Shown one piece after another: positions 4,716 to 61,714 of a stretch of DNA of 64,000 bases. The stretch spans positions 51,547,428 through 51,611,427 of the forward strand of contig QVOM02000119.1 of NCBI GenBank assembly GCA_003586115.2, in the 5' to 3' direction. A model generated the notes under the pieces. That model was given only the letters and a program-made list of their open reading frames with translations, was not told where the DNA came from and ran no database searches. Source of the DNA: Salvator merianae (taxonomy: Eukaryota; Chordata; Lepidosauria; Squamata; Teiidae). Both the position numbers and the translations under genes were made by a program. The number at the start of each line of letters is the position of its first letter. Position 1 is the stretch's first letter.

Positions 4716-5064
4716 GCCTTGCTGTATATAGATGACCTGAAGCTGTACGGAAAATTGGAAATTGAAATCCAGTCACTGACCAACACAGTCCAAATCTTCA
4801 GTAATGACATAAGCATGGAGTTCAGCCTGGAAAAATGTGCCACAGTGGCACTGAAGAAAGGAAAGAATCATAGAAAGTGAAGGCAGCACAATGCCCAATG
4901 GGCAAACTGTTAGAAATGAGTTTAGCACTTTTCTTTAGTTAAATACTCACACAACGCCTCAGGTTAAGAAGTACAGAAGTTTATTGTAGCAATCGCGAAC
5001 CATCAAATGCCACCAGCCAGAAGCCTACAGGCATACTACAACTGGACAACATCAAGCAGGGCAT

Positions 5065-5409
5065 GTGAAAAACATGGTCAGCAAGGAATACGTCCAGAGG
5101 GTCAGAAAAATTTTGAAGAGTAAATTAAATGGCGGGAACACCATTAAGGCCATAAATACCTGGGCCATACCCATCATCAGGTACACTGCCGGAATAGTGA
5201 ATTGGACTCAAGCGGAATTGGACAACTTAGACAGAAAAGTGTGGAAATTTGTGACGATCCACTATGCATTACATCCACGTAGTGATGTTGACAGGCTCTA
5301 CCTGCCAAGAAAGTCAGAAGGCAGAGGACTTTTGCAAGTGCGACAAACCGTTGAAGAGGAGAAACATGCACTGCGGATTATGTCAAAGACAGCCAAGAAT
5401 CGGCTCTGA
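5065..5409 (+). pseudogene. R4-like LINE: RT C-terminal/thumb segment
   Basis: This open segment of about 115 codons encodes a basic stretch (RVRKILKSKLNGGNT) and then WAIPIIRYTAGIVNWTQ, the conserved region just after the RT palm in R4-type LINEs. It ends at a stop. The same protein continues in another frame from about 5410. There is no initiation context, because this is an internal piece of a polyprotein and not a gene start. Confidence 0.6.
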
Positions 5410-5432
5410 GGGAGGTTAATAACAGGAAACGG

Positions 5433-6039
5433 TTGAAAGTGCAGCAGACAAAGAATGAATACTGTAGGAGTGCAGTTCAAAGTCGAACTGAGAATTGGAA
5501 CAAGAAAGCTCTCCATGGACAATTCCTGGAGAAAATTGAAGGCAAAACTGACAAGGAGAAGATATGGTTGTGGCTCACCAATGGCACATTGAAAAAGAAG
5601 ACTGAAGCCCTGATACTTGCAGCCAAAGAACAAGCCATCAGGACAAATGCAATCAAAGCCAGAATTGAAAAATCGACTATGGACCCCAAATGCAGACTCT
5701 GCAAAGAAGCAGATGAAACGATGGACCACATACTCAGCTGTTGCAAAAAGATTGCACAGACAGACTACAAGCAATACTGTCGCCCAAATGATTCACTGGA
5801 ACTTATGCCACAACTACCATCTGCCTGTGGCAAAGAACCAGTGGGAGCACAAACTGGAAAAGGTCACTGAAAATGAACATATCAAACTACTCTGGGACTT
5901 CCAAATACAGACCGACAAAGTTTTGGAACATAATACTCTGGATCTCACAATTGTGGAAAAGAAAAAAGTGTGGATTGTTGATGTCGCCATACCTGGTGAC
6001 AATAGAATCGATGAGAAGCAGCTGGAAAAACTTACCTGA
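5433..6039 (+). pseudogene. R4-like LINE: zinc knuckle and restriction-like endonuclease
   Basis: Two overlapping frames (5433-5870 and 5617-6039) together hold the C-terminal part. First comes a Trp-rich block (KIWLWLTNGTLKKK). Then comes a Cys-x2-Cys-x7-His-x4-Cys knuckle (CRLCKEADETMDHILSC). Last is the endonuclease core ending VDVAIPGDNRIDEKQ. A frameshift at about 5780 splits knuckle from endonuclease, and a stop at 6037 cuts the last ~50 codons. The family function is target-site cleavage for reverse transcription. This copy cannot do it. Confidence 0.65.
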
Positions 6040-21678: not shown

Positions 21679-21686
21679 GTTGCTAT
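21679..21686. repeat. Target-site duplication, left copy
   Basis: GTTGCTAT lies directly before the hAT terminus and is repeated exactly at 33310-33317. It fits the nTnnnnAn pattern known for Ac-type hAT target sites. Confidence 0.92.
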
Positions 21687-21702
21687 TAGGGATGTGCACG
21701 AA
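21687..21702. repeat. hAT left terminal inverted repeat
   Basis: TAGGGATGTGCACGAA matches the inverted right end TAGGGGTGTGCACGAA at 15 of 16 positions. Confidence 0.92.
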
Positions 21703-21812
21703 AGGATTTTTTGGTGTTCGTTTTGCAAAGCCTCGAAGCACCGTAGCTTCGTTTTTGCGCGAAAATGTGACTCGCGAAAATGTCGACCTTCGTTTTCGCT
21801 GCGAAAATCTTA
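21697..21812. repeat. Left subterminal CGAA/TTCG motif cluster
   Basis: About nine CGAA or TTCG tetramers lie within ~115 bp, in forms such as GCGAAAAT and TTCGTTTT. The right end has a similar, denser cluster. In hAT elements subterminal repeats are the usual binding sites for the transposase or helper protein. That role is inferred here. Confidence 0.7.
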
Positions 21813-22129
21813 GCAAAAAACCGGGGGGGGGGGTACGTTCCTTGCAAAATAAGGGAAATAAGTATTGAAAAACTTACTTCTAACCGGTGGCTGGTTTGTA
21901 GGAGCATTCAAAGCCATGAAGCTACATTTCCTCACTTTCGATCGCGAGGTTGCGTGGAAGGAAATGAATGCTATAATTTCGCTAATATGCCAGAGAGGCG
22001 AAAGCAAGTGAAAGCAGAAGGTGTTTTTTTCGCTTTGATTTTTCATCATTTTCGATGCCATTTCAACGCTCATGTCTGTGCGCGCAAGCATGCTATGTTT
22101 TGTCCCTTTAACTATGGCACTCGTCGCTG

Positions 22130-22320
22130 GCTGCCGATCGATTGGGGCGAGGAAATTACCTATTGGCTTGCTTTCTCCTGATTGGCGCTTCGATTTCAAA
22201 TCTTCCCACCTGGGGTGTTGGCGCTCTGTTTATTTTCGCAATTACCTGCTGTTGCCATGGAAACAAAAGGGTTTTGTGATTGAATTGGGTGGGTCCATAG
22301 CACCTTATAAAAGCGGCTCC
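22130..22320 (+). promoter_or_regulatory. Transposase promoter: CCAAT boxes, RFX X-box, TATA box
   Basis: Three inverted CCAAT boxes (ATTGG within 22138-22185) are followed by the consensus X-box GTTGCCATGGAAAC at 22251-22264 and a TATA box TATAAAA at 22306-22312. Transcription would start near 22335-22340. The spacing is that of a compact RNA polymerase II promoter. Confidence 0.6.
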
Positions 22321-22335
22321 CGATGAGCCGTTAAG

Positions 22336-23229
22336 CCTTTTTTATTTCCGTGACGATCGGAGCTAGCTGACTCTTAGCTGATTGACCTGCTGCGACTGAA
22401 GGAGGAGACGAGACGCCGGGATTCGATCTCTCATTCTCTCTCTCTTCCGACCCTGTGCTTCCCGTGGTGGGGTGGTTCTCTCTCTCTCATTCCTCCCTTC
22501 CTTCCCTTCTGCCTTATCTTTCTTTTATTGCTCTTCAGGTAATTTCCATTTTCTTCCTCCACCACCCCTTTCTTTCGTATTACTTTGTGGCTGGGGGGAT
22601 AGCGGAGTGGGGGGGAAAGGAAGGGGACAGCAGACTGTGAGTGCCAGGGTCTCAGAGTTAGGCGTGTGTGTGCACATAGGCACAGTAGTTCTTATCTTCC
22701 CCTAAATAGGGACTTCTAGTGGGTTTAGGTTAGGATTACGGTTAGGCTAGGCTAAGGCTTAGGTCAAGGCAGGTAGGGCTGCTAGTGCAGGGTCCCCAAA
22801 ACCATCTCCCCCTCCCTCTGTATTAGTTAACCTTGCCCCCACAGACAATATTGCTGCTTTCATCCCCACCCCCCCACCAAATAAATTCTAGTAAGGCTCC
22901 CCCAAAGTAAGCCTGCTGCTTCTCTGGGGTAATTCGGTTCACCCAGGTTTGTGTGTGTCTCACAGCAGTGCCATAGCATTCTGCTGGGTGACACACATCC
23001 CAAATAAACAGGCACCCCCCACACCAATACCTCCTAGGCTACCCGGAGCCTTCACGGCTCCAGCCCCCACCTCACCCCTGCCAGGGCTACAGGGACTTAG
23101 GGCTCTCTGTAAAAGTAATATAATAGCACATAGATGGCTGGGAAGAAGGGCAATAGAGGTAGAGGAATGGCTAGATTCCTAGTACGTAGGGGGGAAGGGA
23201 GAGTTGATGCTGCTGGCCATGGCAGGTAG
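22336..23229 (+). other. Transposase 5' leader with probable intron
   Basis: A splice donor CAG|GT at 22538/22539 follows a pyrimidine-rich leader. A candidate acceptor AG at 23228-23229 precedes the open frame. If used, the 5' untranslated intron is ~690 bp. Around 22726-22766 it holds degenerate TTAGG-type units. No conserved coding is seen in this part. Confidence 0.4.
22724..22766. repeat. Degenerate TTAGG-like tandem units
   Basis: The stretch reads as a run of TTAGG, TTAGGATTACGG and TTAGGCTAGG variants. It resembles telomeric TTAGGG repeats but is too degenerate to call interstitial telomere. Confidence 0.4.
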
Positions 23230-24042
23230 GCATCTGAGGGGCCTACTCCCCAAGTCCCTGCCACCAGACGTATAGTCCGTGCAGCGCGCAGGCTCGATTC
23301 TCCCCAACGGGAAGCTGGGCCTGAGCCTGATGCTGGATTTTCTTCCTCAGCAGAGGCGCATAGCTCCCTCCTTCATGCTGAGAAATTGCAGGTTCCTCCA
23401 GCAAGGGAAGAGGGGGGGGTGGAGACGGCTCCAGCTGCCATGGCAGCTGGGCCTCCCCCACCTGTCCCGGGTTCCAGTGCGACCTCGCAGCCCGAGACCG
23501 AGGAGGAGCGGGAGCCTCGCCCTGGTCCTTCTCGGCCCTGGGCTGGGGGGGGGGATGGTTCTGGTCCCCAGGAGGAGCCAGCAGCAGCAGAACCATCTCC
23601 AGCAGCAAAGCGGGCACGTCATGTTAGCCCGGAGGGCAGCGTAGTGTGGAGTCATTTTGAGCTCTGCCCTGATGCTCCAACCTACGCTGCCTGCAAGCAC
23701 TGCAAGGCACGGGTCAGCAGGGGACAGAACATCCGGCATCTTGGCACCACTGCGTTGTGGAGCCATCTGAGGACTCGGCACCCTACCGTTCTGCCCCCTG
23801 ATGACAACAGTAGGCCACGCGTGCCTGGGAGTAGCAGTGCTGTGTCAGCCACCCGGCAGACACAGCTACCCGAGCAGTGGTTGCGGAAGGCTGGGGGCTC
23901 CTGGGCTGATCGTCGAGGTAGATCTCGTATAACTCGGCTCATTGCGGAGATGATCGCCCTCGACGATCAGCTACTCACCGTGGTGGAGAACATCGGCTTC
24001 CGCCGGGTGATCCAAGAGCTCGCCCCATCAGCAGGAGCGTGA
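23230..24042 (+). CDS. hAT transposase, N-terminal part with BED zinc finger
   Basis: This is the N-terminal part of a hAT transposase, which binds the transposon ends. The frame is open from 23230 after a possible splice acceptor. The first in-frame ATG is at 23440 in a good context (GCCATGG), so I take that as the likely start. Upstream ATGs at 23330 and 23375 are out of frame. A Pro/Ala/Glu-rich leader is followed by a BED finger: Trp and Phe of the WSHF motif, CKHC at about 23692-23703, and two His in LWSHLRTRH at about 23755-23781. A linker then runs to IGFRRVIQEL, the start of the conserved hAT core. The frame ends at a TGA (24040-24042). The protein resumes in the next frame, so a frameshift of about 24024-24040 breaks the gene. 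The same relative shift occurs in the second assembled copy. Confidence 0.8.
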   Translation, partial: ASEGPTPQVPATRRIVRAARRLDSPQREAGPEPDAGFSSSAEAHSSLLHAEKLQVPPAREEGGVETAPAAMAAGPPPPVPGSSATSQPETEEEREPRPGPSRPWAGGGDGSGPQEEPAAAEPSPAAKRARHVSPEGSVVWSHFELCPDAPTYAACKHCKARVSRGQNIRHLGTTALWSHLRTRHPTVLPPDDNSRPRVPGSSSAVSATRQTQLPEQWLRKAGGSWADRRGRSRITRLIAEMIALDDQLLTVVENIGFRRVIQELAPSAGA

Positions 24043-25670
24043 TGCCCACCCTGTATGAGTCGTGCAGGGAGGCGGTGCAGGTAAGGATGGCACGCACTGC
24101 CATCCATCCCTGCCCAGTTGTGCATTTCACTGCCGATCTGTGGACCAGCGGCACAGGAATGCATGGCTCCTTCCTCTCCCTCACTGCGCACTGGTGGGGG
24201 GAGGAAAGAGAGGGTGGTGTTTCGGCCAGTGCTGCTGCGCCTTCTCAAGCTCCCTCACAGGCAGTTAAGCCCCTTTGGGCCTTGCTGCATGTGGAGGAGT
24301 TTGACACGAGCCACACTGCCGAACACCTGTCTGAGGCCATGGAGCGTCAGGTGAACGGTTGGTTGAGCCATGAACCGACCCTTTGCCGTGGCTTCATGGT
24401 CACGGACAATGGTAGAAACATAGTTAAGGCAGCCGGCCTGGCGGGGTTTATGAGCGTCACCTGTATGTCTCACACTCTCCACCTGGTCGTGAGGGACGCT
24501 CTTGGACTCCCTGGGCCTGGGTCCAGGAGTGTGGGCCCCGCTGCAGCTTCCGCCACCGCATCTATGGGAGCCCTTGTGGAGAAGTGCCGCAGGATGGCTT
24601 CCCATTTGCACAGGAGTGTAAGCATGCAGAGGCTGCTCAGAGAGGCCCAGAGGGAGCGGCAGCTGCCGGAACATCAGATCCCCACTGACGTTCCCACCCG
24701 GTGGAACTCCACCTACCTCCTGCTCCAGCGCCTTCTAGAGCAGAAGCCCGCCCTTCACACGCTCGCGATGAGGCATAACGTGGAGGAGTGCAGTCTCTCC
24801 CCGGAGGACTGGCGCACCATCACGGATGCTGTCAAGGTTCTCCGGTTCTTCGATCAACTGACGAGGAAAATGAGTTCTGAGACAGCACTGCTGAGCATTG
24901 CGCTGACAAGCGCGATTGCCTTGGGCAAACGCCTTGCTGGGCTTCGGCCGCAGCTGAACACTGAGGCTGGCCGGGCCTTGGCGAGTCGGCTGCAGGCTGG
25001 GGTTGAGAGGAGGCTGACTGAGCCCTTGCGACAGAAGCCTGCCTCCATTTTGGCCAGCCTTCTGGACCCAAGGGTTCGGGAGGGAGCTGTCCCAGAGGAT
25101 CAGCTCCCTCGGTGGAGAGATCGCCTGGTCCAGGCAGTGAGGAGAGTCCAGACAGAGAGATTGGGGGGCCAGGCAGGGCACAGTGGAGGAGCGCATTCTA
25201 GCAGTGCGTCCCCCGCTTCCAGTGGCGGAAGTTCCCCTGGTCCTAGTGGTAGCGGTCGGCCCAGCAGCGTGGTTTCACAGGCAGGTCATGATGAGTGCCC
25301 AGACAACACAGAGTCTGACATTTTGGGACTCACTGACCTTCCCACGAGATGGCAGAGGCCAGCTTCCGTTGATAGTGCTGAGCAGTCCGTTCTGCAGTAT
25401 CTTTCAGGGGAAGCGGCAGATGTGGACACGGTGCCATCCGAGTTTTGGGCGAAGCATCGCCAAATCTGGCCGGATTTGGAAGCTGTTGCCTGGAGGTACC
25501 TGTCAGCTCCACCGACATCCGTGCAGAGCGAGAGGGTGTTCTCCATGGCTGGTGACGTGTTGACATCTCATCGCTCTCGCACGGGCGGCGAACTTGTGCA
25601 GCAGCTCGTCTTCCTAAAGGCCAACCTGCCCCTGCTGGGTTTTCCCGAGCTGCCTTTGGGGGATGAGTGA
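24039..25670 (+). CDS. hAT transposase, catalytic and dimerisation part (copy A)
   Basis: This is the RNase H-like catalytic core of a hAT transposase, which cuts and joins the element ends. Counting from 24039, Asp33 in FTADLWTS and Asp123 in MVTDNGRN fit the first two acidic catalytic residues. Cys142 and His145 form the CxxH motif (CMSHTLHLVV). RWNSTYLLLQ lies near residue 219. A Ser/Gly/Pro-rich insert spans about 375-415. The C-terminal hAT dimerisation domain, with SVQSERVFSMAG and LVQQLVFLKANLPLL, spans about 455-533. I did not assign the catalytic Glu with confidence. The 543-codon frame is otherwise intact. The ATG at 24042 is internal to the normal protein, and the true start is in the upstream frame. 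Two CAG|GTAAGG-like strings inside the frame look like chance donors. Confidence 0.88.
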   Translation: MMPTLYESCREAVQVRMARTAIHPCPVVHFTADLWTSGTGMHGSFLSLTAHWWGEEREGGVSASAAAPSQAPSQAVKPLWALLHVEEFDTSHTAEHLSEAMERQVNGWLSHEPTLCRGFMVTDNGRNIVKAAGLAGFMSVTCMSHTLHLVVRDALGLPGPGSRSVGPAAASATASMGALVEKCRRMASHLHRSVSMQRLLREAQRERQLPEHQIPTDVPTRWNSTYLLLQRLLEQKPALHTLAMRHNVEECSLSPEDWRTITDAVKVLRFFDQLTRKMSSETALLSIALTSAIALGKRLAGLRPQLNTEAGRALASRLQAGVERRLTEPLRQKPASILASLLDPRVREGAVPEDQLPRWRDRLVQAVRRVQTERLGGQAGHSGGAHSSSASPASSGGSSPGPSGSGRPSSVVSQAGHDECPDNTESDILGLTDLPTRWQRPASVDSAEQSVLQYLSGEAADVDTVPSEFWAKHRQIWPDLEAVAWRYLSAPPTSVQSERVFSMAGDVLTSHRSRTGGELVQQLVFLKANLPLLGFPELPLGDE

Positions 25671-26855
25671 CCAGACCATGGATCACTCCATCCCAACACT
25701 GCAGCACCATAGGCAGCCGGGACAAAAATGAGAAGAACTAGGTGGCCCAATAACCCCCAACAGGACCAGAAGAATAATTAAGCACCAAACCAGCAGGAAA
25801 CTGTAGATAAGGAGAGCCACAAAGTAAGGGGCAGAAACACAGTGTATTGAATAGTAGGGGAAGCTGAGTAGGGACTTTATTAAGGGGTAAAAAAGGCATT
25901 TGCTTTCTAACTGTTTATATTTCAGTTTGTCGGAGCAATCTCTTTCTCTGTGTCTGTGTCACGCTCAGGCACGTATGCACGCAGACACACACGCACCGTG
26001 ACGCAAACTCAAGCACACACACACACACACACACCAAGGACGCCAGGCCAATGATGACATGGGTACTAGGTACAGGTTACGCTCTGTGTCCCTGGGCCAG
26101 CAGAACCCATCAGGGTCCGCGCCCAAGGCCAGTCTGAGGCCTTGTCCGAGGTGGAGAACACACACCATCACCTCAATATGAAAAAGTCCCTCCCAGCCAG
26201 CCCTACCTGAGCAGAGGGGTATTTGAGACCCCGGGGACACCATGAGGCTATCTAGTCCAACCCATCACATATACAAACAAAGCCGTGCCCTCTTTTACTT
26301 GGGTACAGCTCATATCTCTTTTGGAGTTTAACTGAACTGGCATGTGCAAAAAATTCCTTTGGCAAACTCTTCAACAGCTTATAAGAGTCATATTTAAGCC
26401 GGAAGAACGTCTATTCTTGGGAGTTTGTGAGTTCACCATCACCATGTGTTACAATACATAACCTTCTACTGGCCGCTGTAATCTACAGCGGCATCCTCTT
26501 ATTCTAGGTTGTCTCATGCCCAACTGGAGCTTGTACCAGGCCACACATTTCCTATTTAGTTCTGCCATGGTCTGGTAAGGGGCAACCTAGAGGAAGCGGA
26601 AACCTACCTGAAATAGAGTACGATTTTGAAGGGGAATGCATGCACTTAAAAGTTTACACTTCCCACCCAGACTTTCCAAAGGAATCAGATACACAGAATC
26701 TGGATTAACTAAGCAAAACATTTTTATTGGACTCAGGGATGGTCAGGTGGGGTATACGTACAAAGGGTTAGGGATAGGGATAGGTGGGGCACTGAACAGC
26801 ACTATTATTAACAGTAGTATTAAACAAAACCTTATAAAATACACAAAACTATTTA
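25671..26855. other. Region between the convergent genes, copy A
   Basis: This non-coding DNA holds an (AC)n tract at about 26011-26032 and the - strand poly(A) signal (TTTATT on +) at 26723-26728. A TAGTCCAACCC string at about 26255 is common in reptile repeats. An ATTAAA at 26818-26823 could serve as a variant poly(A) signal for the + strand transposase. Confidence 0.5.
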
Positions 26856-27055
26856 NNNNNNNNNNNNNNNNNNNNNNNNNNNNNNNNNNNNNNNNNNNNN
26901 NNNNNNNNNNNNNNNNNNNNNNNNNNNNNNNNNNNNNNNNNNNNNNNNNNNNNNNNNNNNNNNNNNNNNNNNNNNNNNNNNNNNNNNNNNNNNNNNNNNN
27001 NNNNNNNNNNNNNNNNNNNNNNNNNNNNNNNNNNNNNNNNNNNNNNNNNNNNNNN
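26856..27055. other. Assembly gap, 200 N
   Basis: Exactly 200 Ns, a size typical of a fixed-length scaffolding gap rather than a measured one. Any open frame drawn across it is meaningless. Confidence 0.98.
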
Positions 27056-27111
27056 TTCCGCCGGGTGATCCAAGAGCTCGCCTACCCTCACGCACCACGT
27101 TCAGCAGGAGC

Positions 27112-28743
27112 GTGATGCCCTCCCTGTACGAGGCGTGCAGGGAGGCGGTGCAGGTAAGGATGGCACGCACTGCCATCCATCCCTGCCCAGTCGTGCATTT
27201 CACTGCCGATCTGTGGACCAGCGGCACAGGAATGCATGGCTCCTTCCTCTCCCTCACTGCGCACTGGTGGGGGGAGGAAAGAGAGGGTGGTGTTTCGGCC
27301 AGTGCTGCTGCGCCTTCTCAAGCTCCCTCACAGGCAGTTAAGCCCCTTTGGGCCTTGCTGCATGTGGAGGAGTTTGACACGAGCCACACTGCCGAACACC
27401 TGTCTGAGGCCATGGACCGTCAGGTGAACGGTTGGTTGAGCCATGAACCGACCCTTTGCCGTGGCTTCATGGTCACGGACAATGGTAGGAACATAGTTAA
27501 GGCAGCCGGCCTGGCGGGGTTTGTGAGCGTCACCTGTATGTCTCACACTCTCCACCTGGTCGTGAGGGACGCTCTTGGACTCCCTGGGCCTGGGTCCAGG
27601 AGTGTGGGCCCCGCTGCAGCTTCCGCCACCGCATCTATGGGAGCCCTTGTGGAGAAGTGCCGCAGGATGGCTTCCCATTTGCACAGGAGTGTAAGCATGC
27701 AGAGGCTGCTCAGAGAGGCCCAGAGGGAGCGGCAGCTGCCGGAACATCAGATCCCCACTGACGTTCCCACCCGGTGGAACTCCACCTACCTCCTGCTCCA
27801 GCGCCTTCTAGAGCAGAAGCCCGCCCTTCACACGCTCGCGATGAGGCATAACGTGGAGGAGTGCAGTCTCTCCCCGGAGAACTGGTGCACCATCACGGAT
27901 GCTGTCAAGGTTCTCCGGTTCTTCGATCAACTGACGAGGAAAATGAGTTCTGAGACAGCACTGCTGAGCGTTGCGCTGACAAGCGCGATTGCCTTGGGCA
28001 AACGCCTTGCTGGGCTTCGGCCGCAGCTGAACACTGAGGCTGGCCGGGCCTTGGCGAGTCGGCTGCAGGCTGGGGTTGAGAGGAGGCTGATTGAGCCCTT
28101 GCGACAGAAGCCTGCCTCCATTTTGGCCAGCCTTCTGGACCCAAGGGTTCGGGAGGGAGCTGTCCCAGAGGATCAGCTCCCTCGGTGGAGAGATCGCCTG
28201 GTCCAGGCAGTGAGGAGAGTCCAGACAGAGAGATTGGGGGGCCAGGCAGGGCACAGTGGAGGAGCGCCTGCTAGCAGTGCGTCCCCCGCTTCCAGTGGCG
28301 GAAGTTCCCCTGGTCCTAGTGGTAGCGGTCAGCCCAGCAGCGTGGTTTCACAGGCAGGTCATGATGAGTGCCCAGACGACACAGAGTCTGACATTTTTGG
28401 ACTCACTGACCTTCCCACGAGACGGCAGAGGCCAGCTTCCGTTGATAGTGCTGAGCAGTCCGTTCTGCAGTATCTTTCAGGGGAAGCGGCAGACGTGGAC
28501 ACGGTGCCATCCGAGTTTTGGGCGAAGCATCGCCAAATCTGGCCGGATTTGGAAGCTGTTGCCCGGAGGTACCTGTCAGCTCCACCGACATCCGTGCAGA
28601 GCGAGAGGGTGTTCTCCATGGCTGGTGACGTGTTGACATCTCATCGCTCTCGCACGGGCGGTGAACTTGTGCAGCAGCTCGTCTTCCTAAAGGCCAACCT
28701 GCCCCTGCTGGGCTTTCCCGAGCTGCCTTTGGGGGATGAGTGA
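27112..28743 (+). CDS. hAT transposase, catalytic part (copy B, probably the same gene)
   Basis: This has the same 543-codon frame and motifs as 24039-25670, with about 15 amino-acid differences. Examples are Asp for Glu in the MDRQVNG block, Val for Met before SVTCMSH, and NWC for DWR. The catalytic Asp residues, CxxH and dimerisation domain are kept. Just upstream, 27056-27115 holds only the last codons of the other frame (FRRVIQEL...). The conserved LPSRTTFSRS block is present in this copy in the second frame, from about 27079. Because it lies at a contig edge beside an N gap inside one pair of element ends, it is most likely the other haplotype or an overlap of the same gene. A real internal duplication is the alternative. 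Confidence 0.82.
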   Translation: MMPSLYEACREAVQVRMARTAIHPCPVVHFTADLWTSGTGMHGSFLSLTAHWWGEEREGGVSASAAAPSQAPSQAVKPLWALLHVEEFDTSHTAEHLSEAMDRQVNGWLSHEPTLCRGFMVTDNGRNIVKAAGLAGFVSVTCMSHTLHLVVRDALGLPGPGSRSVGPAAASATASMGALVEKCRRMASHLHRSVSMQRLLREAQRERQLPEHQIPTDVPTRWNSTYLLLQRLLEQKPALHTLAMRHNVEECSLSPENWCTITDAVKVLRFFDQLTRKMSSETALLSVALTSAIALGKRLAGLRPQLNTEAGRALASRLQAGVERRLIEPLRQKPASILASLLDPRVREGAVPEDQLPRWRDRLVQAVRRVQTERLGGQAGHSGGAPASSASPASSGGSSPGPSGSGQPSSVVSQAGHDECPDDTESDIFGLTDLPTRRQRPASVDSAEQSVLQYLSGEAADVDTVPSEFWAKHRQIWPDLEAVARRYLSAPPTSVQSERVFSMAGDVLTSHRSRTGGELVQQLVFLKANLPLLGFPELPLGDE

Positions 28744-29093
28744 CCAGGCCATGGATCACTCCATCCCAACACTGCAGCACCATAGGCAGCCGGGACAAAA
28801 ATGAGAAGAACTAGGTGGCCCAATAACCCCCAACAGGACCAGAAGAATAATTAAGCTCCAAACTGGCAGGAAACTGTAGATAAGGAGAGCCACAAAGTAA
28901 GGGGCAGAAACACAGTGTATTGAATAGTAGGGGAAGCAGAGTAGGGACTTTATTAAGGGGTAAAAAAGGCATTTGCTTTCTAACTTTTTATATTTCAGTT
29001 TGTCGGAGCAATCTCTTTCTCTGTGTCTGTGTCACACTCAGACACGTATGCACGCAGACACACACGCACTGTGACGCAAACTCAAGCACACAC

Positions 29094-29106
29094 ACACACA
29101 CACACA
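29094..29106. repeat. (AC)n microsatellite
   Basis: An AC dinucleotide run, present at equal length in the other block at about 26011-26032. Confidence 0.6.
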
Positions 29107-29795
29107 CCAAGGATGCCAGGCCAATGATGACATGGGTACTAGGTACAGGTTACGCTCTGTGTCCCTGGGCCAGCAGAACCCATCAGGGTCCGCGCCCAAG
29201 GCCAGTCTGAGGCCTTGTCCGAGGTGGAGAACACACACCATCACCTCAATATGAAAAAGTCCCTCCCAGCCAGCCCTACCTGAGCAGAGGGGTATTTGAG
29301 ACCCCGGGGACACCATGAGGCTATCTAGTCCAACCCATCACATATACAAACAAAGCCGTGCCCTCTTTTACTTGGGTACAGCTCATATCTCTTTTGGAGT
29401 TTAACTGAACTGGCATGTGCAAAAAATTCCTTTGGCAAACTCTTCAACAGCTTATAAGAGTCATATTTAAGCCGGAAGAACGTCTATTCTTGGGAGTTTG
29501 TGAGTTCACCATCACCATGTGTTACAATACATAACCTTCTACTGGCCGCTGTAATCTACAGCGGCATCCTCTTATTCTAGGTTGTCTCATGCCCAACTGG
29601 AGCTTGTACCAGGCCACACATTTCCTATTTAGTTCTGCCATGGTCTGGTAAGGGGCAACCTAGAGGAAGCGGAAACCTACCTGAAATAGAGTACGATTTT
29701 GAAGGGGAATGCATGCACTTAAAAGTTTACACTTCCCACCCAGACTTTCCAAAGGAATCAGATACACAGAATCTGGATTAACTAAGCAAAACATT

Positions 29796-29801
29796 TTTAT
29801 T
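29796..29801 (-). terminator. Poly(A) signal of the Myb/SANT gene
   Basis: AATAAA on the - strand lies about 120 bp beyond the proposed stop codon at 29922-29924. The duplicate is at 26723-26728. Confidence 0.6.
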
Positions 29802-29921
29802 GGACTCAGGGATGGTCGGGTGGGGTATACGTACAAAGGGTTAGGGATAGGGATAGGTGGGGCACTGAACAGCACTATTATTAACAGTAGTATTAAACAA
29901 AACCTTATAAAATACACAAAA

Positions 29922-32312
29922 CTATTTACAGATGCGGCAGCAATGCAGGCAGGCCAGGCAGGACTTCAGAACCTGCAGGGGGAAATAATTGCTGATCAGG
30001 CGTCGTGCAGGTTTCCCAGGGAATTTGAGGGAAAGGGCACAACAGTCAAATTGAATTCCAGCAGTAGCTGCTGGCAGAGGAGCGTTGTAGGATGAATGGC
30101 TCCTCCAACCCCTCGAGGGCCCTGGAAGATAATGGCTCGCCACGCATGCTGCCCATTCCAGGAACCTGCTGCAGCTAGTGTTTGCCCTGCTGAAACCAAT
30201 CCCGCTGTCTTCCCTACCAACGCGGTACTACTGCCTCTGGCCATAGGCCCTCACTCACCTTGCGGGCCTCTCCGGGGGAGCCTGCCTCCGGAGAGCATCC
30301 CTCAGCTCCAGCACCGCGTTGCTTATCATGTGGAGGCGGGCATCCATTGCCTCCACCTGCCCCTGCAGAACCTGCATGCCCCTTTCCATGGCAAAAGCCC
30401 TCGTGTTGCACTGCTGGTCTGTGGAAACATAAGAGGAGGAAATTAGGACCGATACACATCTGCCCAGATGCTTCACACATCCCCAGTCACGCAAAGGAGG
30501 CAAGGGCGCACTTCGCCCTGCACAGCAACACCACCATGTGAACAGCAAAAAACCCAGGAATACTCACAGTGCGTGGCCATTGCTCTCTGCATCCGAGCAT
30601 GGGACTCCAGGACCTCCTCGAGGCAGGTGGTCTGGGTCCCATGCTCCAGCTGGTCAGTCTGGGTGGCCACGTTGCAACTGCGAGGGCGGGGTTGTTGCTC
30701 CTCCTCCTCCATGCAGATCTGCAGGGCACTTGTGGAGGGGGGTGAGCCCTCTGAGGCTGGGCCTCCTGCTGGGCATCCTGTAAAGTGAGAGCAGAACAGG
30801 TGGCTCAGCAGCCAACAGGATGCAATGGGGATTGGTGCAAGAGGGATCTGCTGCCAGTAACACCAGTCCCCTAATGGCAGCGATGCAGGGTGGGCGGAAA
30901 TGGCTGGGGAATAAGGGCCGGTGCAGTACTCACTGCTTTCCTGTGTGTGTGGGGGGGGATGCCGCACCAGGCAGACATCTAAGTGCTACAGCTGGGAAGA
31001 AGGAGAGAGGAAAGGAATATAGCAACATTTCAATTCAACAACAAGATGAGTGTCACTGTCAGTGCACCTTCAGCCCTGATCAGCATTGGCAGCTGGGTAG
31101 GGCAGGGAGGGAACTGATGGAATGGATCAATGAATCAGGCCCACTCCCCCATTTCGGACAGGCTTGCAGCCCGCCCGCCCGCCAAGGAAGCTAGCTGTAT
31201 CCTGCTTCATGTAGCCCCCCTGCAAGCAAACTTACAGTGAACGCCCCTGCTGCTGCCCTCCATTGCAGGATCCTCCTGCAGAAGGATGCCTGGTGGGTCA
31301 GTGTGTGTTGGGGCTGGGGCTCCTTCCAGCACTGCGGGTGGTTCTGCTCAGGAGGAGGATAGAGGAAAGAACCACAATGAACACCTGACGGCCTGACAAT
31401 TCCCATTTTTCTCTGGGTTCACAAACCTCCACCTGTTCCCTGCTATTCCCTCATTCTTAGTAGTGTCCCCACAGCATCCCTTCCAAAGGGCAACACCAAC
31501 GTACCTTCTGCTGGCTCTGCAGCTGGCCACTCCTCCTCCTCCTCTTGCTCTTCAGGAGAACGTGCTCCGGCTGGAAAGCAATAATGTCACACTGTTCAGA
31601 GGTTGTCAGTTGGGCCAACTGCATAAGAAAGCGGTACCCACCCACCGTACTTGATGCCATCCAGCCATGTATGCGGCAGAAATAAGGAGTTCATGTTTAA
31701 TGTGTGGAGACCATCATGTGTTACAGCCAGCATTATGGTTCTGTACCTTCCCCCCCCCCCCGCATAAGGTCCCAGTCAAACAAATCAGCAGTTCCTTCCC
31801 ACTGAAATCAAGAGTGCAAGCAGTGAACAATAATACTTATTATATCATTGCCCCAACTGCCAAGAGAGTGGCAGATGCGCACAAGCGGTCAGGCCACATC
31901 TGGCAATCCATATTTATTTTCGGGGGCAGTAGGGGGGCGTTTCAATGACAAGAAGGAACAACGTACCTGAACTGGCCTTGTGGCGATGTCTCCAGTGGGG
32001 TTTCCCAGCAACCACCCAGAGCTGTCGGAGGAGGGGATAGTGAGGTGGCCTCTTCTGGTGCGGAGGAGAACCATCATGGGCCTCCAGGGCTCCGTAGAAA
32101 CCGGCCCTGAGCCCCTTGAACTTCAGCCGGCATTGTGCCACGGAGCGCCTGAATCCCCGCACCTGCAGACTTCTCGATGCCTCTAAGAAGAGGCTTCGAT
32201 TTTGCCTGCAGGTGCAGGTCATCAGACGCTCTCGCAGCCCATTGGCTGCTAGCAGCGCCTCTAGCAGGGCCTGGATCTCTTCTGGCTGCCAGTACAAATA
32301 ACGGGTTGCCAT
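29922..32312 (-). CDS. Transposon-borne Myb/SANT-like (trihelix) protein, about six exons
   Basis: A spliced gene convergent to the transposase. Proposed exons are 32312-31967, 31570-31505, 31343-31236, 30777 (or 30768)-30568, 30418-30259 and 30186-29922. Donors read CAG|GTACGT, AAG|GTACGT, ACT|GTAAGT, ACT|GTGAGT and AAG|GTGAGT, and phases agree through exons 1-3 and 4-6. Exon 1 encodes a Myb/SANT-like domain: Trp8, a helix EEIQALLEALL (11-21), the recognition-type helix RSVAQCRLKFKGLR (56-69), then HYPLLRQLWVVAGKP. Exons 2-3 give an acidic EEEEEW linker. Exon 5 is a heptad-like coiled coil (MQVLQGQVEAMDARLHMI). The last exon is Cys-rich and ends at TAG. In the exon 3-4 join the stronger acceptor creates TGA; the acceptor 9 bp later keeps the frame. 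The likely role is to bind the element ends beside the transposase, as in PIF/Harbinger, but this is inference. Confidence 0.7.
31967..32312 (-). CDS. Exon 1 of the Myb/SANT gene
   Basis: The 346-bp exon starts at an ATG in AAAATGG context, with an in-frame stop 9 bp upstream, so no longer start exists. It ends at an ideal donor, CAG|GTACGT. All of the three-helix DNA-binding domain is in this exon. A TATTTAA box at 32333-32339 is so close that transcription from it would begin at or inside the first codons. Either that box is not the one used, or a downstream Met (residue 31) is. Confidence 0.75.
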
Positions 32313-32332
32313 TTTTCCCTACGAGGTGACCA

Positions 32333-32400
32333 TTAAATAGATCCCGCCCACTGCAGTTTTATTGGCCTGTGAAACCTGCTCTGGGATTGGCTGCCTAGGA
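32333..32400 (-). promoter_or_regulatory. Promoter-like region of the Myb/SANT gene
   Basis: On the - strand: CCAAT boxes at 32400-32396 and 32365-32361, a GC box GTGGGCGGG at 32351-32343 and TATTTAA at 32339-32333, in that order before the ATG. Confidence 0.55.
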
Positions 32401-32409
32401 TCACACTAG

Positions 32410-33084
32410 TGATTCGCCCTCTCCACGGCAGCTGGGGTCTTCTGACCTCCTTGCCCAACATGCCCTCTTATCAGTGGGTAAGCCCTGCCTGGGAAGGGAC
32501 TTTCAAAAAGCTTTCAAAAAAAAACCAAAAAAAACTTTCACTGGCTCTCAAAGCTAGTAGTAAGTTACCTCATATGATCCCCGTTAGATGGCTGTCACGG
32601 TCTCGCGCGCTGAAGTCCGCTCCTTTCCCTTTTCTTCATTTAGCAGCCAGCCAGCAGCAGCAACATTCTGATTTCCACGGATCATTCGTTGCCTCGCGAC
32701 TTTGTAGTAACCTCGGTTAATTTTTTTCCACAAGCGCCTCGCCTAGTCCTACTCATTGTACGAGGTGGGCGGGCTCAGTCAGTGACGGTCAAAGCAGTTG
32801 CCTTCAGCTAAGCGAGTAATTTAGAAGGTTGGAGGCAGCCGCAGGATGAAATAACTGAGAAAAGCAGCGAAATGACGCGTCGTCGTCTTGCACTACGTTC
32901 CAAAAAGTATAACTATACCACCATCAAACAAATTTTATTAGCGTCCTAGCCATCTGAGTTTCTCATCCTCATGCGATGCGATCCGATGCGAGGCAGGCAA
33001 AGAGTTAAAAAAAAACCCGTCGTCTAAGTCTTTCCTACAGTGATGCATTACAATTTCCAACCCCTAGAGGCAGAGTCTGTAGGC
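32410..33084. other. Right inner region of the hAT element
   Basis: No coding is recognised. It is CpG-containing and carries an A-rich stretch at about 32517-32533. GATGCGATGCGATCCGATG near 32973 is a short tandem-like CG-rich string. Confidence 0.4.
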
Positions 33085-33305
33085 TGCGAAGCCACCGAGC
33101 TTCGTAGCTTCGTTGTTTTCGCTGCGAAAAAAAAGACGAAAGCGGCCGTTCGCGGCGAGTGGCGAAGGTCCCGAAAATTAGCGAAAATGGCCAGGACTTT
33201 TGCCATTCGCATTCGCAGTGGAGATGCCACTTCGCATTCAATGCGAAAGTCGCAAAGCAACGAAATTCGTACGAAATTTTGTTGCTTCGAAACTTCGTGC
33301 ACACC
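33085..33305. repeat. Right subterminal CGAA/TTCG motif cluster
   Basis: About twenty CGAA or TTCG tetramers lie in ~220 bp on both strands, such as GCGAAAAT, TTTCGCTGCGAAA and TTCGAAAC. The density is far above the flanks. The left end has the same motif family, including the shared TTTCGCTGCGAAAA string. Confidence 0.75.
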
Positions 33306-33309
33306 CCTA
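33294..33309. repeat. hAT right terminal inverted repeat
   Basis: TTCGTGCACACCCCTA is the inverted partner of 21687-21702, with one mismatch. Confidence 0.92.
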
Positions 33310-33317
33310 GTTGCTAT
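33310..33317. repeat. Target-site duplication, right copy
   Basis: GTTGCTAT, identical to 21679-21686. Confidence 0.92.
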
Positions 33318-34100
33318 TCATTGAATACTTTTTGCTAAACAACTGCCTACTTCTACTCATGGACAGCCTTACCTTAGTTTATCTTTGCTATACTTCAGCA
33401 TTTGCTAGAAATATTTAGTCAAATAAACAGTTCATATTTATTCCTATTAGCTTTTGGCTTATATATTCTTTTTTTCAATAGTGCTTTAAACTTGTTATAT
33501 ATATTTATGTGACAGCAAATCAGTCTTCAAGGGGATATTATGGCTTACCTATCCTTTGTTACCATTTTACTTTATGCCAGGATCATCCATTTATTTTATA
33601 CATATCCGCATGCCAGCTACTTGCCATATTAATGAATATGCTACTGGATCTCAGAGCAGAAGCTGACAAAATCTGTATTAATGTTTAAGGGGATGTATAA
33701 ACATGGTAAATTTTAATGCACAAAAAATGTCAGCATCCTCATTTTCACTTTTATGTTTGAACTTTTCATCCATTTTTTACTTGCGAAGCTGTTTCGAGAG
33801 GTATTCAGCAAGAAAATAAACAATGCTCTCCCCAACTTCTGGAGGAACGTACTCAATCTTTAAATATGGACTCTGGGTCTGGGATGGAAGCGATTGCCTT
33901 AGAACTTGTTAGTTGCAGCTGTTATTATTTGTAATTACATAATTAGGCAAGAGTGAAGGGAAAAGCAGAACTATACTGAGCGCATCCCATTATTTCGGAT
34001 CACACTTGGAGTGTCCACTTACTCATTTCTAACAAGAACTCCATCAAAGAAAACAAAAGGAAACATAGATTGGAATAAAACTTGATATGGTATTGTATAT
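33318..34100. other. Nothing recognised
   Basis: AT-rich, CpG-poor DNA resumes at once after the hAT element. No gene is visible. Confidence 0.4.
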
Positions 34101-58221: not shown

Positions 58222-60435
58222 TTAAAAATCAACTATTAAGTTAAAAGCCTTCCGGAATAAAAATGTTTTTACCTGCTTACGGAAGGCAGGAAGAGATGGG
58301 GCCATCCTGGCCTCCATGGGGAGGGAGTTCCAAAGCTTGGGGGCAGCCACTGAAAAGGCCCTCACTCTTGTTCCTACTAACCGGATTTGGGAAGGAGGTG
58401 GTACAGAGAGAAGGGCCTCAGAGGCTGATCTAAGCAGCCTGGCAGGCTCATAGAGGACAAGACGATTCTTCAGGTATCCTGGTCCTAAGCCATTTAGTGC
58501 TTTATAGGTTAAAACAGCCAGTTTAAATTGTGCCCGGAAAGGAATTGGTAGCCAGTGGAGCTCTTCCAATAAGGGAGTTGTGCGCTCCCTATAACTAGCG
58601 CCAGTTAACAGACTGGCTGCTGTTCTTTGAACCAGCTTGAGTTTCTGGGTGGTTTTCAGTGGTAACCCCACATAGAGGGCACAACAGTAATCCAACCGGG
58701 ATGTAACCAAGGCATGAATCACTGTGGCCAAATCAGGCTTCTCCAAAAACGGGCACAGTTGCCGCACTAGTTTCAACTGTGCGAAGGCACTCCTGGACAC
58801 TGCTGAAGCCTGAGCCTCCATGCTCAGAGATGAATCCAGGAGTACCCCCAAACTACGGACCTGCGTTCTCAGAGGGAGGGCAACCCCATCCAACACTGAC
58901 TGAAACCCTATTCGTGTATCTGACTTCCGGCTGACCAGGAGCACTTCTGTTTTATCAGCATTAAGTTTCATCTTGTTTGCTTTCATCCAGTTTGTTACAG
59001 CTTCCAGGCATTGATTTATCACATGCCCAGCTTCTTTGGAGTCTGGTGGAAATGAATAGTAAAGCTGGGTATCATCAGCGTACTGATGACATTTCACCCC
59101 CAAACTCCTAATGATTTCTCCCAATGGTTTCATGTAAATATTGAATAACATAGGGGACAGGACTGAACCCTGAGGTACCCCGCAGTTCAGTGGCCACAGA
59201 TTCGAACAAGAATCCCCCAGCAGAACTTTTTGAAACTGACCCTCCAAAAAGGAGCGGAACCATTGTAACACAATCCCTCCAACCCCCAACCCAACTAAAC
59301 GGCCAAGGAGGACACCATGATCAACGGTGTCAAAGGCCGCCGAAAGATCTAGCAGAATCAGCAATGATACATTCTCTTTGTCTAATTCCAGGCATAGGTC
59401 ATCTACCAGAGCGACCAGGGCTGTCTCTGTCCCATAGCCTGGTCTAAAACCAGATTGGCATAGATCAAGAAAGTTTGTCTCATCTAAAAGACCCTGGAGT
59501 TGGGAGGCCAAGACACGTTCCAGTACCTTTCCCAGGAACAGCAAGTTGGAGACTGGTCTATAGTTGTTTAATATAGTAGGATCTAGGGATGGCTTCTTCA
59601 ACAGTGGTCTAACCACCGCCTCCTTCAGATCTACAGGGACAGTACCTTGTTGCAAGGAGGCATTAATCACTTCCCCGATCCACTCAGTCAAGCCTATTCT
59701 GGCCTGTTTGATTAGCCAGGATGGACAGGGGTCTAGTACACAAGTGGTGGGTCTCACTTCCCCAAGGATCTCGTCTACAACCTCGGGCTGCACTAATTGA
59801 AATGTATTCATTAATGCTGGACCTGCAGGGGCTGACATTATCTCTGCTGTACCTACCACACTATTAGAGTCCAGCTCAGAACGAAACTGGGTGATCTTTC
59901 CCGAAAAATGGCGTGCAAATTCTTCACAGCGATCTGGTATGTGGTTCTCATATTCTATTGGGGACGGTTTTAACAGATCTCTGACTACTCGAAACAACTC
60001 TGCCGGGCGGTTGTGAGCAGAGGCAATACTGGCAGCCAGATATAACTTATTTGCAGCTTGTATAGCTCTCGTATAGGCCTTAAGATATTGTTTTGCTCGT
60101 TTCCTATTAGAATTGTTTAGTGTTTTCCTCCATTGTCGCTCAAGTCTCCTTCTCTCACGCTTCATGGCTCTTAGGTCCTTAGAAAACCATGGAGCTGGCT
60201 TAGGCCTCCTGTGTGAGAAGGGACGCTTAGGTGCAATCGTGTCTAATGCCCTGGTCACTTCCCTATTCCAGCAATCAACCAGGGCTTCGACCGGGGCATT
60301 TGTCAAGGCAGTGGGAAAAACCCCAAGAGCCCTTAAGAATCTTTCTGGATCCATGAGTTTCCTGGGGTGGGCCAACTTAACAGGAGCACCTTCCTTGCGG
60401 AGGTTCTGGGTTCCATCAAGTCTAAATGTGACCAA
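58222..60435 (-). CDS. L2 ORF2: reverse transcriptase and C-terminus
   Basis: The 737-codon frame encodes the RT that copies LINE RNA at the nicked target. Residues 290-295 hold the NNYRPV entry box, 361-373 motif A (LDLSAAFDTVDHG), 419-428 motif B (GVPQGSVLSP) and 452-455 the catalytic YADD. After that come KLNADKTEVLL (490-500), LVTSRLDYCCALY and LQ..AASLLTGA. The last block, LWNSLPMEARMAPSLPAFRK, runs into FLFRKAFN and is typical of L2. The listed first codon is not the real start, because the protein begins in the endonuclease frame at about 61204. No internal stops are seen, and all catalytic residues visible to me are present. Confidence 0.88.
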   Translation of the reverse strand: MVTFRLDGTQNLRKEGAPVKLAHPRKLMDPERFLRALGVFPTALTNAPVEALVDCWNREVTRALDTIAPKRPFSHRRPKPAPWFSKDLRAMKRERRRLERQWRKTLNNSNRKRAKQYLKAYTRAIQAANKLYLAASIASAHNRPAELFRVVRDLLKPSPIEYENHIPDRCEEFARHFSGKITQFRSELDSNSVVGTAEIMSAPAGPALMNTFQLVQPEVVDEILGEVRPTTCVLDPCPSWLIKQARIGLTEWIGEVINASLQQGTVPVDLKEAVVRPLLKKPSLDPTILNNYRPVSNLLFLGKVLERVLASQLQGLLDETNFLDLCQSGFRPGYGTETALVALVDDLCLELDKENVSLLILLDLSAAFDTVDHGVLLGRLVGLGVGGIVLQWFRSFLEGQFQKVLLGDSCSNLWPLNCGVPQGSVLSPMLFNIYMKPLGEIIRSLGVKCHQYADDTQLYYSFPPDSKEAGHVINQCLEAVTNWMKANKMKLNADKTEVLLVSRKSDTRIGFQSVLDGVALPLRTQVRSLGVLLDSSLSMEAQASAVSRSAFAQLKLVRQLCPFLEKPDLATVIHALVTSRLDYCCALYVGLPLKTTQKLKLVQRTAASLLTGASYRERTTPLLEELHWLPIPFRAQFKLAVLTYKALNGLGPGYLKNRLVLYEPARLLRSASEALLSVPPPSQIRLVGTRVRAFSVAAPKLWNSLPMEARMAPSLPAFRKQVKTFLFRKAFNLIVDF

Positions 60436-60442
60436 GAAGTGG

Positions 60443-61204
60443 TCAGTCCAGGATAATGGAACTGTGCAAGGTCCTTCTTATTCTGCAATCACTGTCATCC
60501 ATCCCACAAGAAAATACAAGGTCTAAAGTGTGTCCAGCCACACGAGTGGGGCTAGCGACAAGCTGGAACAATCCCATGGTAGCCAATCCAGACATGAAAG
60601 TTTGGGCCGCACCTGAGAGGGTAGTCTCAGCATGAATGTTGAAGTCCCCGAGTATCACGAGTTGCCGAGAATCTAAGACCACCTCAGAGATAACCTTGAT
60701 CAGTTTTGAAAGGGAAGTAGTTAAGCAGAGAGGTGGCCTGTAGACCAATAAAATCCCTAACCTGTCTCGGCTGCACATCTTTAAATATAAACATTCAAAC
60801 CCTTCAGATTGTGAGATAGGGCATCTAACTAGAGGGATCTCATCCCTGTAGACCACTGCAACTCCACCTCCCCATCCCTCAGATCTTGCCACATGTTGTA
60901 CAGAGAAACCTGGTGGGCAGAGCTGAGAAAGATTAGTTCCCCCAGCCGCCTCTAACCAGGTCTCTGTAATACATGTCAGGTCTGCATCTTCACTCAGGAT
61001 CAGGTCTTGGATGGCCACTGTTTTGCCATTCACTGACCTGGCATTAAGTAGTAAAAATTTCAACCCAGAGGTATTTCTAGTGCGGCTATCCTGATTATTT
61101 ATGAGGGGAGATATTTTGGGACTAATTAACACTTTGTCTCGCCTTCTGCCCCCCAAGTAATATAGATGCTTCCCCTTTTCATATCTTCCATTGTGCCAAA
61201 TCAC
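60443..61204 (-). CDS. L2 ORF2: APE-type endonuclease
   Basis: The 253-codon frame encodes the apurinic-type endonuclease that nicks target DNA. Asn54 (LLNARSV), Glu81 (ITETWL), the GGGVAVVYR block (112-120), GDFN (186-189) and DLVFS (228-232) match the family order. The final Ser-Asp-His segment (LSWTDHFLV) is present in the DNA but in the next frame. A 1-base indel between Cys240 and about Leu245 (near 60470-60485) therefore shifts the frame and the endonuclease ends early in HSSIILD. Translation could begin at the GTG/ATG region near 61204 or a little upstream, since no clear ATG decides it. Confidence 0.82.
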   Translation of the reverse strand: MIWHNGRYEKGKHLYYLGGRRRDKVLISPKISPLINNQDSRTRNTSGLKFLLLNARSVNGKTVAIQDLILSEDADLTCITETWLEAAGGTNLSQLCPPGFSVQHVARSEGWGGGVAVVYRDEIPLVRCPISQSEGFECLYLKMCSRDRLGILLVYRPPLCLTTSLSKLIKVISEVVLDSRQLVILGDFNIHAETTLSGAAQTFMSGLATMGLFQLVASPTRVAGHTLDLVFSCGMDDSDCRIRRTLHSSIILD

Positions 61205-61260
61205 TGGAATAGCTGCTCCCTCCTGTTCATTAATTCCCTGATCGAAATGGCAACATAACT

Positions 61261-61714
61261 TCCAATTATTTCAATTGCCTGAAGTAATTGACAAACTTTG
61301 GCAAATCATAGGGCCTTGGTAACAGTTCCTGGCTAGCTACTGAAGCTTATACCTGCATCCAGTGGTTGAATATTGAAAATCCAGACTCCTAACAATAGTG
61401 TTTTTGTAAGGACATTCATACTTTATAGCTTATTTTTTAGTGTTACTGTAAAGCAACTTCATCATCTCAGCGGAGCAGGAATGAACAGTAGTTGTGGTGG
61501 CCAATAACTGCTTGCCCTGTTTTCACTTTCCCTAATCTACTGCCGGCCATTATGTGCCACCATTGCCAGTACCAACCAAGCCTGCTGCTGATGGATCAGT
61601 TTTCTAAGTAGGCACAAAATGAGAAAGAGAAGAAGCAAAACCATTCCCCGCTGGCTGTTCTGGGCTATTTCTCTTCTTGAACTGCATCCATCCCAGATGG
61701 GGATTTCAATATTT
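61261..61714. other. Nothing recognised
   Basis: No supportable feature between the L2 element and the next L2 tail. Confidence 0.35.

Follow-up and report, generated by a model that had tools for sequence, protein, structure and literature searches.

A young, multi-copy family of hAT transposons in Salvator merianae carries a Myb/SANT gene as an inherited part of the element. The copy under study lies at positions 21687-33309 of the window, by which the whole analysed stretch of 64,000 nucleotides is meant (G000:C102:51547428-51611427). It holds a hAT transposase gene on the forward strand and, convergent with it on the reverse strand, a Myb/SANT gene of four predicted exons. As the original prediction held, the Myb/SANT gene belongs to the element: it recurs with the same ends at independent insertion sites, lies on the strand opposite to the transposase at a near-fixed offset, and has a domain that appears constrained. 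By analogy with PIF/Harbinger transposons, its protein would most likely assist the transposase by binding DNA at the element ends, a reading that is favoured over its rivals and to which roughly even weight is given here.

Element ends and target-site duplication

As found in the end search, the left terminal inverted repeat TAGGGATGTGCACGAA (21687-21702, + strand) and the right terminal inverted repeat TAGGGGTGTGCACGAA (reverse complement, 33294-33309, - strand) agree in 15 of 16 bases. Immediately outside them, GTTGCTAT stands as an exact 8-bp target-site duplication, with its left copy at 21679-21686 and its right copy at 33310-33317. No second pair of ends in the window combines an exact 8-bp duplication with a mismatch count of 1 or less, and none of 20 first-order Markov shuffles produced such a pair; the 16-bp inverted ends and exact duplication of the original prediction are thereby borne out. 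With looser ends of up to 5 mismatches, 21 end-plus-duplication pairs were counted in the window versus 6-14 in 10 shuffles. Since loose pairs also arise in shuffled sequence, the tight match alone was used as evidence. The 8-bp duplication, a hallmark of hAT elements, is present in the window copy and in 15 of 20 further copies fetched from the genome. The 3-bp duplication that is the hallmark of PIF/Harbinger elements is not seen, the duplications being 8 bp in both the window and the copies.

Both element ends are enriched in CpG as well as in the motif TTCG/CGAA. The left subterminal region (21687-22436, + strand) holds 17 such motifs in 750 bp and is a predicted candidate binding region for the transposase or the Myb protein, and the right subterminal region (32937-33309, - strand) is likewise TTCG/CGAA-rich by motif count. 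Across the 14 complete copies of the family, the first 300 bp contain 10-16 motifs and the last 300 bp 18-23, compared with 0.5-0.7 per 300 bp in the interior. Such clusters look as would be expected for clustered subterminal binding sites, for which they are candidates.

Recurrence of the Myb gene across family copies

The genome searched comprises 2.05 Gb in 1816 contigs. A search with the hAT dimerisation domain listed 150 matches of 933 candidates, and 20 copies were fetched from these 150. They were picked for long open transposase frames and not for the Myb gene, so the integrity of the transposase in this set, with the whole frame open in 19 of 20, reflects the choice. Both ends and an exact 8-bp duplication were found in 15 of the 20, and all 15 duplications differ; L025 has both ends and no matching duplication, and L014, L015, L020 and L023 show a single end within the fetched stretch. 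The occurrence of other copies with the same ends had been named as a check on the original prediction, and the result is in its favour: at least 150 places were listed, and every one of the 20 fetched copies contains Myb exons 3 and 4. Exon 1 was found in 18, the exceptions being L015, whose stretch reads N and ends short of this exon, and L013, in which it is deleted. This loss of Myb exon 1 from L013 is due to a deletion of 985 bp, at whose junction the two flanks share an overlap of 3 bases.

In 14 of the 20 fetched copies, one of which (L022) has a CT donor, the Myb coding sequence can be read from start codon to stop codon without interruption. In the remaining six, the reading is interrupted by a stop (L011) or an indel (L025), or else part of the gene is missing from the fetched stretch or from the exon match (L013, L014, L015 and L023). 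The Myb gene might be a passenger, gained by chance in an ancestor and hitch-hiking without serving the element, and the six interrupted or incomplete genes, gap- and end-cut ones included, agree with this; its being open in 14 copies that were not chosen for it argues against such a passenger, which is considered improbable. Twelve of the 20 copies possess both ends, the duplication, an open transposase frame and a Myb gene that is open and has canonical predicted splice sites (L009, L010, L012, L016, L017, L018, L019, L021, L024, L026, L027 and L028). Pairwise identity among the 14 complete copies is 97.5-99.7%, with a median of 98.6% for the 91 pairs, from which a recent spread of the family follows.

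A genome search with Myb exon 1 listed 150 places of 957 candidates, with identities of 88-100%. A listed hAT dimerisation domain lies within 8 kb of 108 of these 150 places, on the opposite strand in all 108. Among these listed matches, the spacing from the Myb gene to the dimerisation domain is 3300-3700 bp in 99 of the 108, and the rest range over 2906-5489 bp. Because both listings hold 150 of more candidates, the other 42 Myb places are not necessarily free of a transposase. Two of the 42 were fetched: L041 holds the C-terminal part of the transposase, and L040, an older copy, has lost most of its transposase but retains the Myb gene. In L040 (715-5808), the Myb gene is kept at about 84-90% identity by exon.

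Conversely, 43 of the 150 listed dimerisation-domain places have no listed Myb match within 8 kb; they include L013, L015 and the hAT-like genes of L037-L039. The last three, intended as Myb-less hAT elements, gave no Myb match better than E 1.9, and no ends with a duplication were found in their fetched stretches. Since no ends were found, and since L037 has N at the catalytic aspartates, they may be host genes and make no fair comparison. On the - strand of L037 (5259-7835), an 859-amino-acid open hAT transposase-like frame is 67-68% identical to a ZBED4-like protein of Hemicordylus. As read by eye, N stands at both catalytic aspartates of this frame, and no element ends were found in the stretch. 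The frame may represent a host gene domesticated from the same transposase lineage.

Assembly gap and apparent length of the window copy

Among the 15 copies that show both ends and the duplication, 14 are 8570-8599 bp long and L013 is 7583 bp; the window copy measures 11.6 kb. Within it, a gap of 200 N at 26856-27055 separates two direct copies, 24028-26855 and 27101-29928, which are 98.9% identical. Two other family copies, L020 (1882-2081) and L041 (1432-1631), also contain 200 N with overlapping ends. Because these copies show the same pattern, the two pieces in the window are most likely overlapping contig ends that mimic a tandem duplication of the transposase, and the extra length of the window copy is most likely due only to this assembly gap. 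A biological tandem duplication of the transposase was considered and is disfavoured on the same grounds. The exact 8-bp duplication on either side of the gap indicates that both contigs belong to one insertion.

Structure of the Myb/SANT gene

On the - strand, a model of four exons (32312-31967, 31570-31505, 30777-30568 and 30418-30255) joined across three GT-AG introns gives 261 amino acids without a stop, the splicing being predicted. Exon 1 contains the start codon and the Myb/SANT domain, matched in Pfam by Myb_DNA-bind_4 (PF13837, E 1.4e-9), and the same domain was detected in all four family members scanned. By the splice model, exon 2 codes for an acidic linker, which is seen directly in the protein sequence, and exon 3 for a Glu/Gln-rich stretch in which the heptad region starts. 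Exon 4 codes for a coiled-coil-like tail and the stop codon. The heptad pattern of the tail was equalled by none of 2000 shuffles for the window and L016, and by 10 and 17 of 2000 for L021 and L025, respectively. Upstream of the start, a TATA-like box (TATTTAA, 32333-32339, - strand), with a GC box and CCAAT further up, forms a predicted promoter, and a predicted poly(A) signal (AATAAA, 29796-29801, - strand) was identified by motif. All 14 complete copies preserve TATTTAA, and 13 of the 14 have an AATAAA in the corresponding stretch.

Only 8 of 5000 shuffled coding sequences stayed open under the splice model. The stop-free length near exon 1 is unremarkable, the longest real run being 170 amino acids versus a shuffle median of 161. 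As run length is not unusual, the case for the Myb gene rests on the domain, the splice model and the copies. With these, the convergent spliced gene with a Myb/SANT domain, acidic linker and coiled coil that had been described from the sequence is upheld, its splicing as a prediction and its coiled coil as a coiled-coil-like tail. Alternative exons at 31343-31236 and 30991-30934 were tried and rejected, giving a stop or the wrong frame.

Relatives of the Myb protein were sought in the protein database: of 3197 candidates, none reached E <= 1, and with residues 1-105 as the query, 203 candidates gave no match at E <= 10. Searches of IMG/VR and of a bacterial and archaeal genome collection led nowhere. 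Solved structures gave only weak matches to the Myb domain, among them the GT-1 trihelix (E 0.31-0.91). A single-sequence fold of the Myb exon reached a mean predicted local distance difference test score (pLDDT) of 44, and the model was left unused.

The possibility that the gene came with a Harbinger-type element nested inside the hAT element was also considered. According to the accessible text of PMC4482050, PIF/Harbinger elements typically pair a transposase with a Myb gene, and 5 weak inner inverted pairs with 2-bp duplications were counted around the gene versus 2-4 in each of 5 shuffles. The original prediction had pointed to independent ends of this gene as a case against it; no inner inverted pairs (12 bases, at most 2 mismatches) with a duplication of 3 to 9 bp were found around the gene when the left side was taken from 29401-30254 and the right side from 32314-33290. 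A six-frame Pfam scan of 29929-33400 returned the Myb domain only, and the gene's exons recur in all fetched copies, 15 of them with both hAT ends and the duplication. Nesting is therefore disfavoured and is regarded as highly improbable.

Transposase gene

The transposase frames (23230-24042, and 24012-25670 or 27070-28743) carry a BED zinc finger (zf-BED, PF02892, E 2.7e-11) and a hAT dimerisation domain (Dimer_Tnp_hAT, PF05699, E 1.8e-12 and 1.2e-13 in the two representations around the gap). The Pfam scan of these frames gave BED and hAT domains only and no Harbinger-type DDE transposase. On the + strand, the N-terminal part with the BED zinc finger occupies 23134-24042, and the catalytic and dimerisation part appears first before the gap (24012-25670) and again after it (27070-28743). 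The blocks TADLWTS, VTDNGRN and SERVFSMAG align with blocks of Hermes, the first two pieces being weak on their own; the aligned blocks are those that hold the catalytic residues D, D and E of Hermes. A predicted TATA box (TATAAAA, 22306-22312, + strand) precedes the gene, and TATAAAAG of the predicted transposase promoter stands at bases 625-629 in 14 of 14 complete copies. The hAT transposase on the forward strand, as originally claimed, is thus confirmed in its BED and dimerisation domains; as an intact gene of this copy it is not, since its frame contains an in-frame stop (TAG) near 23227 and is broken near 24027 and again near 27070.

In the protein database, relatives of the transposase come from two lizards and a caecilian. 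The closest found are a ZBED4-like protein of Hemicordylus capensis (52% identity over 99% of the query) and a hAT protein of Salvator merianae (68% over 53%), both known as protein records alone. The predicted fold of the transposase had a mean pLDDT of 54.5.

Selection on the two genes

The ratio of nonsynonymous to synonymous change (dN/dS) was obtained from simple pairwise counts, which are affected by the shared history of the pairs and by the decay of copies once inserted. Fifteen pairs among L040, L014, L021, L016, L025 and the window copy were compared, with exon 2 of L014 left out for lack of an exon match. For the whole Myb gene, dN/dS was below 1 in all 15 pairs, with p < 0.05 in 11 of them and values of 0.47-0.57 in those 11. 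Within the Myb domain, comparison of L040 with L021, the window, L016 and L025 gave 0.23, 0.19, 0.25 and 0.27, respectively (p 4e-6 to 4e-4), and the pair of window and L021 gave 0.23 (p 0.015). Beyond the domain, L040 versus L014 gave 0.46 (p 0.013). For the transposase, values of 0.44-0.65 were obtained in 8 pairs. As judged from these ratios, the Myb gene is under some constraint, and its domain is constrained between subfamilies. The whole-gene ratios speak against the gene being a mere passenger.

Unexpectedly, the Myb introns (window 30255-32312) diverge less between subfamilies than synonymous sites, at 0.028 versus 0.075 between the window and L021; without CpG sites, the values for this pair are 0.022 versus 0.067.

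Proposed role of the Myb protein

The use of a separate Myb-like protein beside the transposase in PIF/Harbinger elements, assumed in the original prediction, is described in the accessible text of PMC2836001 and PMC4482050. According to the former, as far as its accessible text goes, both proteins are required: the Myb-like one, ORF1, binds to the element ends, makes contact with the transposase and carries it into the nucleus. In the hAT family considered here, each gene would be transcribed inward from its own end, and the Myb protein might dimerise through its coiled-coil-like tail. By analogy with PIF/Harbinger, it would bind subterminal DNA and recruit or steady the transposase there, and it could act in trans, also on copies without a Myb gene. 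A farther-reaching proposal, held tentatively and at somewhat less than even confidence, is that of a two-component vertebrate hAT in which a Harbinger-like division of labour evolved independently. The Myb/SANT protein would then be required in trans for the BED-finger transposase to be loaded at the ends. Many of the recent copies, 12 of the 20 examined, still have both genes open between intact ends.

Several points weigh against such a partnership. The transposase has a BED zinc finger of its own, so that a second DNA-binding protein should not be needed, and the characterised Harbinger transposases are, in the accessible text of PMC2836001, without an obvious DNA-binding domain, unlike the BED-bearing transposase here. 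The database holds transposase relatives but no Myb relative, which argues against an old partnership or else reflects missing annotation. Within the Myb domain, constraint is weaker for L014, the other old copy, which compared with the other five gave dN/dS of 0.43-0.51 with p < 0.05 in one of five; over all pairs, p < 0.05 was reached in 6 of 15, most pairs of young copies were not significant, and the young pair of L016 and L025 gave 1.98 (p 0.52). Beyond the domain, L040 versus L021, the window, L016 and L025 gave 0.72-0.80, not significant. Among 22 Myb copies, the proportion of amino-acid changes was no lower in shared than in private changes (Fisher p 0.56); the same test on 19 transposase copies also showed no difference (p 0.88), so that it lends no support to selection on either gene. 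Additionally, the original prediction had named autonomous copies without the Myb gene as a case against it. Among the 15 copies with ends and duplication, one, L013, partly answers to this: this copy lacks Myb exon 1, although its transposase is open and it shows both ends together with an exact duplication. Either the Myb gene need not be present in cis, or exon 1 was lost after insertion.

Two of these points, the lack of a Myb relative in the database and the likeness of shared and private changes, also agree with the passenger explanation. Others agree with a regulatory role, in which the Myb protein would repress, activate or de-silence the two genes of the element, or compete with the transposase at the ends. 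Because the transposase keeps its own DNA-binding finger, this is a serious rival; the existence of L013, a copy with ends and duplication that lacks the Myb domain, is in accordance with it, as is the fast evolution of the region beyond the domain in the L040 comparisons. Proteins facing host partners often evolve fast. The partner Myb proteins of PIF/Harbinger, however, act in transposition according to the accessible text of PMC2836001, and by that analogy a regulator is regarded as possible but somewhat doubtful.

Relation to known transposons

Like the hAT superfamily of the Ac/hobo/Hermes type, the element has an 8-bp duplication, short inverted ends, a BED finger, a dimerisation domain and blocks that can be aligned with Hermes. 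To our knowledge, the usual hAT elements carry a transposase only, whereas the element here carries a second, Myb/SANT gene. The possession of a transposase and a separate Myb/SANT gene is shared with PIF/Harbinger and PHIS transposons, as described in the accessible text of PMC4482050 and PMC2836001; PHIS groups with a Myb/SANT gene are reported in the former, in whose accessible text the function of the extra genes is called still unclear. Unlike in PIF/Harbinger, the transposase, ends and 8-bp duplication here are of hAT type, Harbinger duplications being 3 bp according to the accessible text of PMC12730594. The same source, in its accessible text, describes hAT7 of rust fungi, in which a hAT element likewise carries an additional gene of a different nature, there a TET/JBP dioxygenase. 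In contrast to the element here, with its 8-bp duplication and Myb gene, hAT7 is fungal, has 7-bp duplications and carries a dioxygenase gene. No TET domain was found in the Pfam scans of the transposase frames and of the six frames of 29929-33400. Among the matches listed in the open-access literature, with subscription journals and Repbase entries outside the scope, no hAT element with a Myb gene was found.

The existence of a natural hAT family in which a Myb/SANT gene has stayed open while the copies spread suggests that a layout with two proteins, as in PIF/Harbinger, can also emerge in a different superfamily. Host genes of the Myb/SANT kind might also derive from such a family, and not from Harbinger alone. 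hAT transposons, which are used to deliver genes, are regarded as systems with a single protein. The young copies with both genes open allow the need for a partner protein to be put to a direct test.

Other elements in the window

Outside the hAT element, a broken remnant at 4990-6039 (+ strand) resembles another reverse-transcriptase element; one of its frames matches zf-RVT weakly, at an E of 1.1e-5 that narrowly misses the curated cut-off. At 58222-61270 (- strand) lies a non-LTR (long terminal repeat) retrotransposon with long open frames, in which an endonuclease (PF03372, E 1.8e-12) and a reverse transcriptase (PF00078, E 6.8e-33) are encoded in two overlapping, different reading frames.

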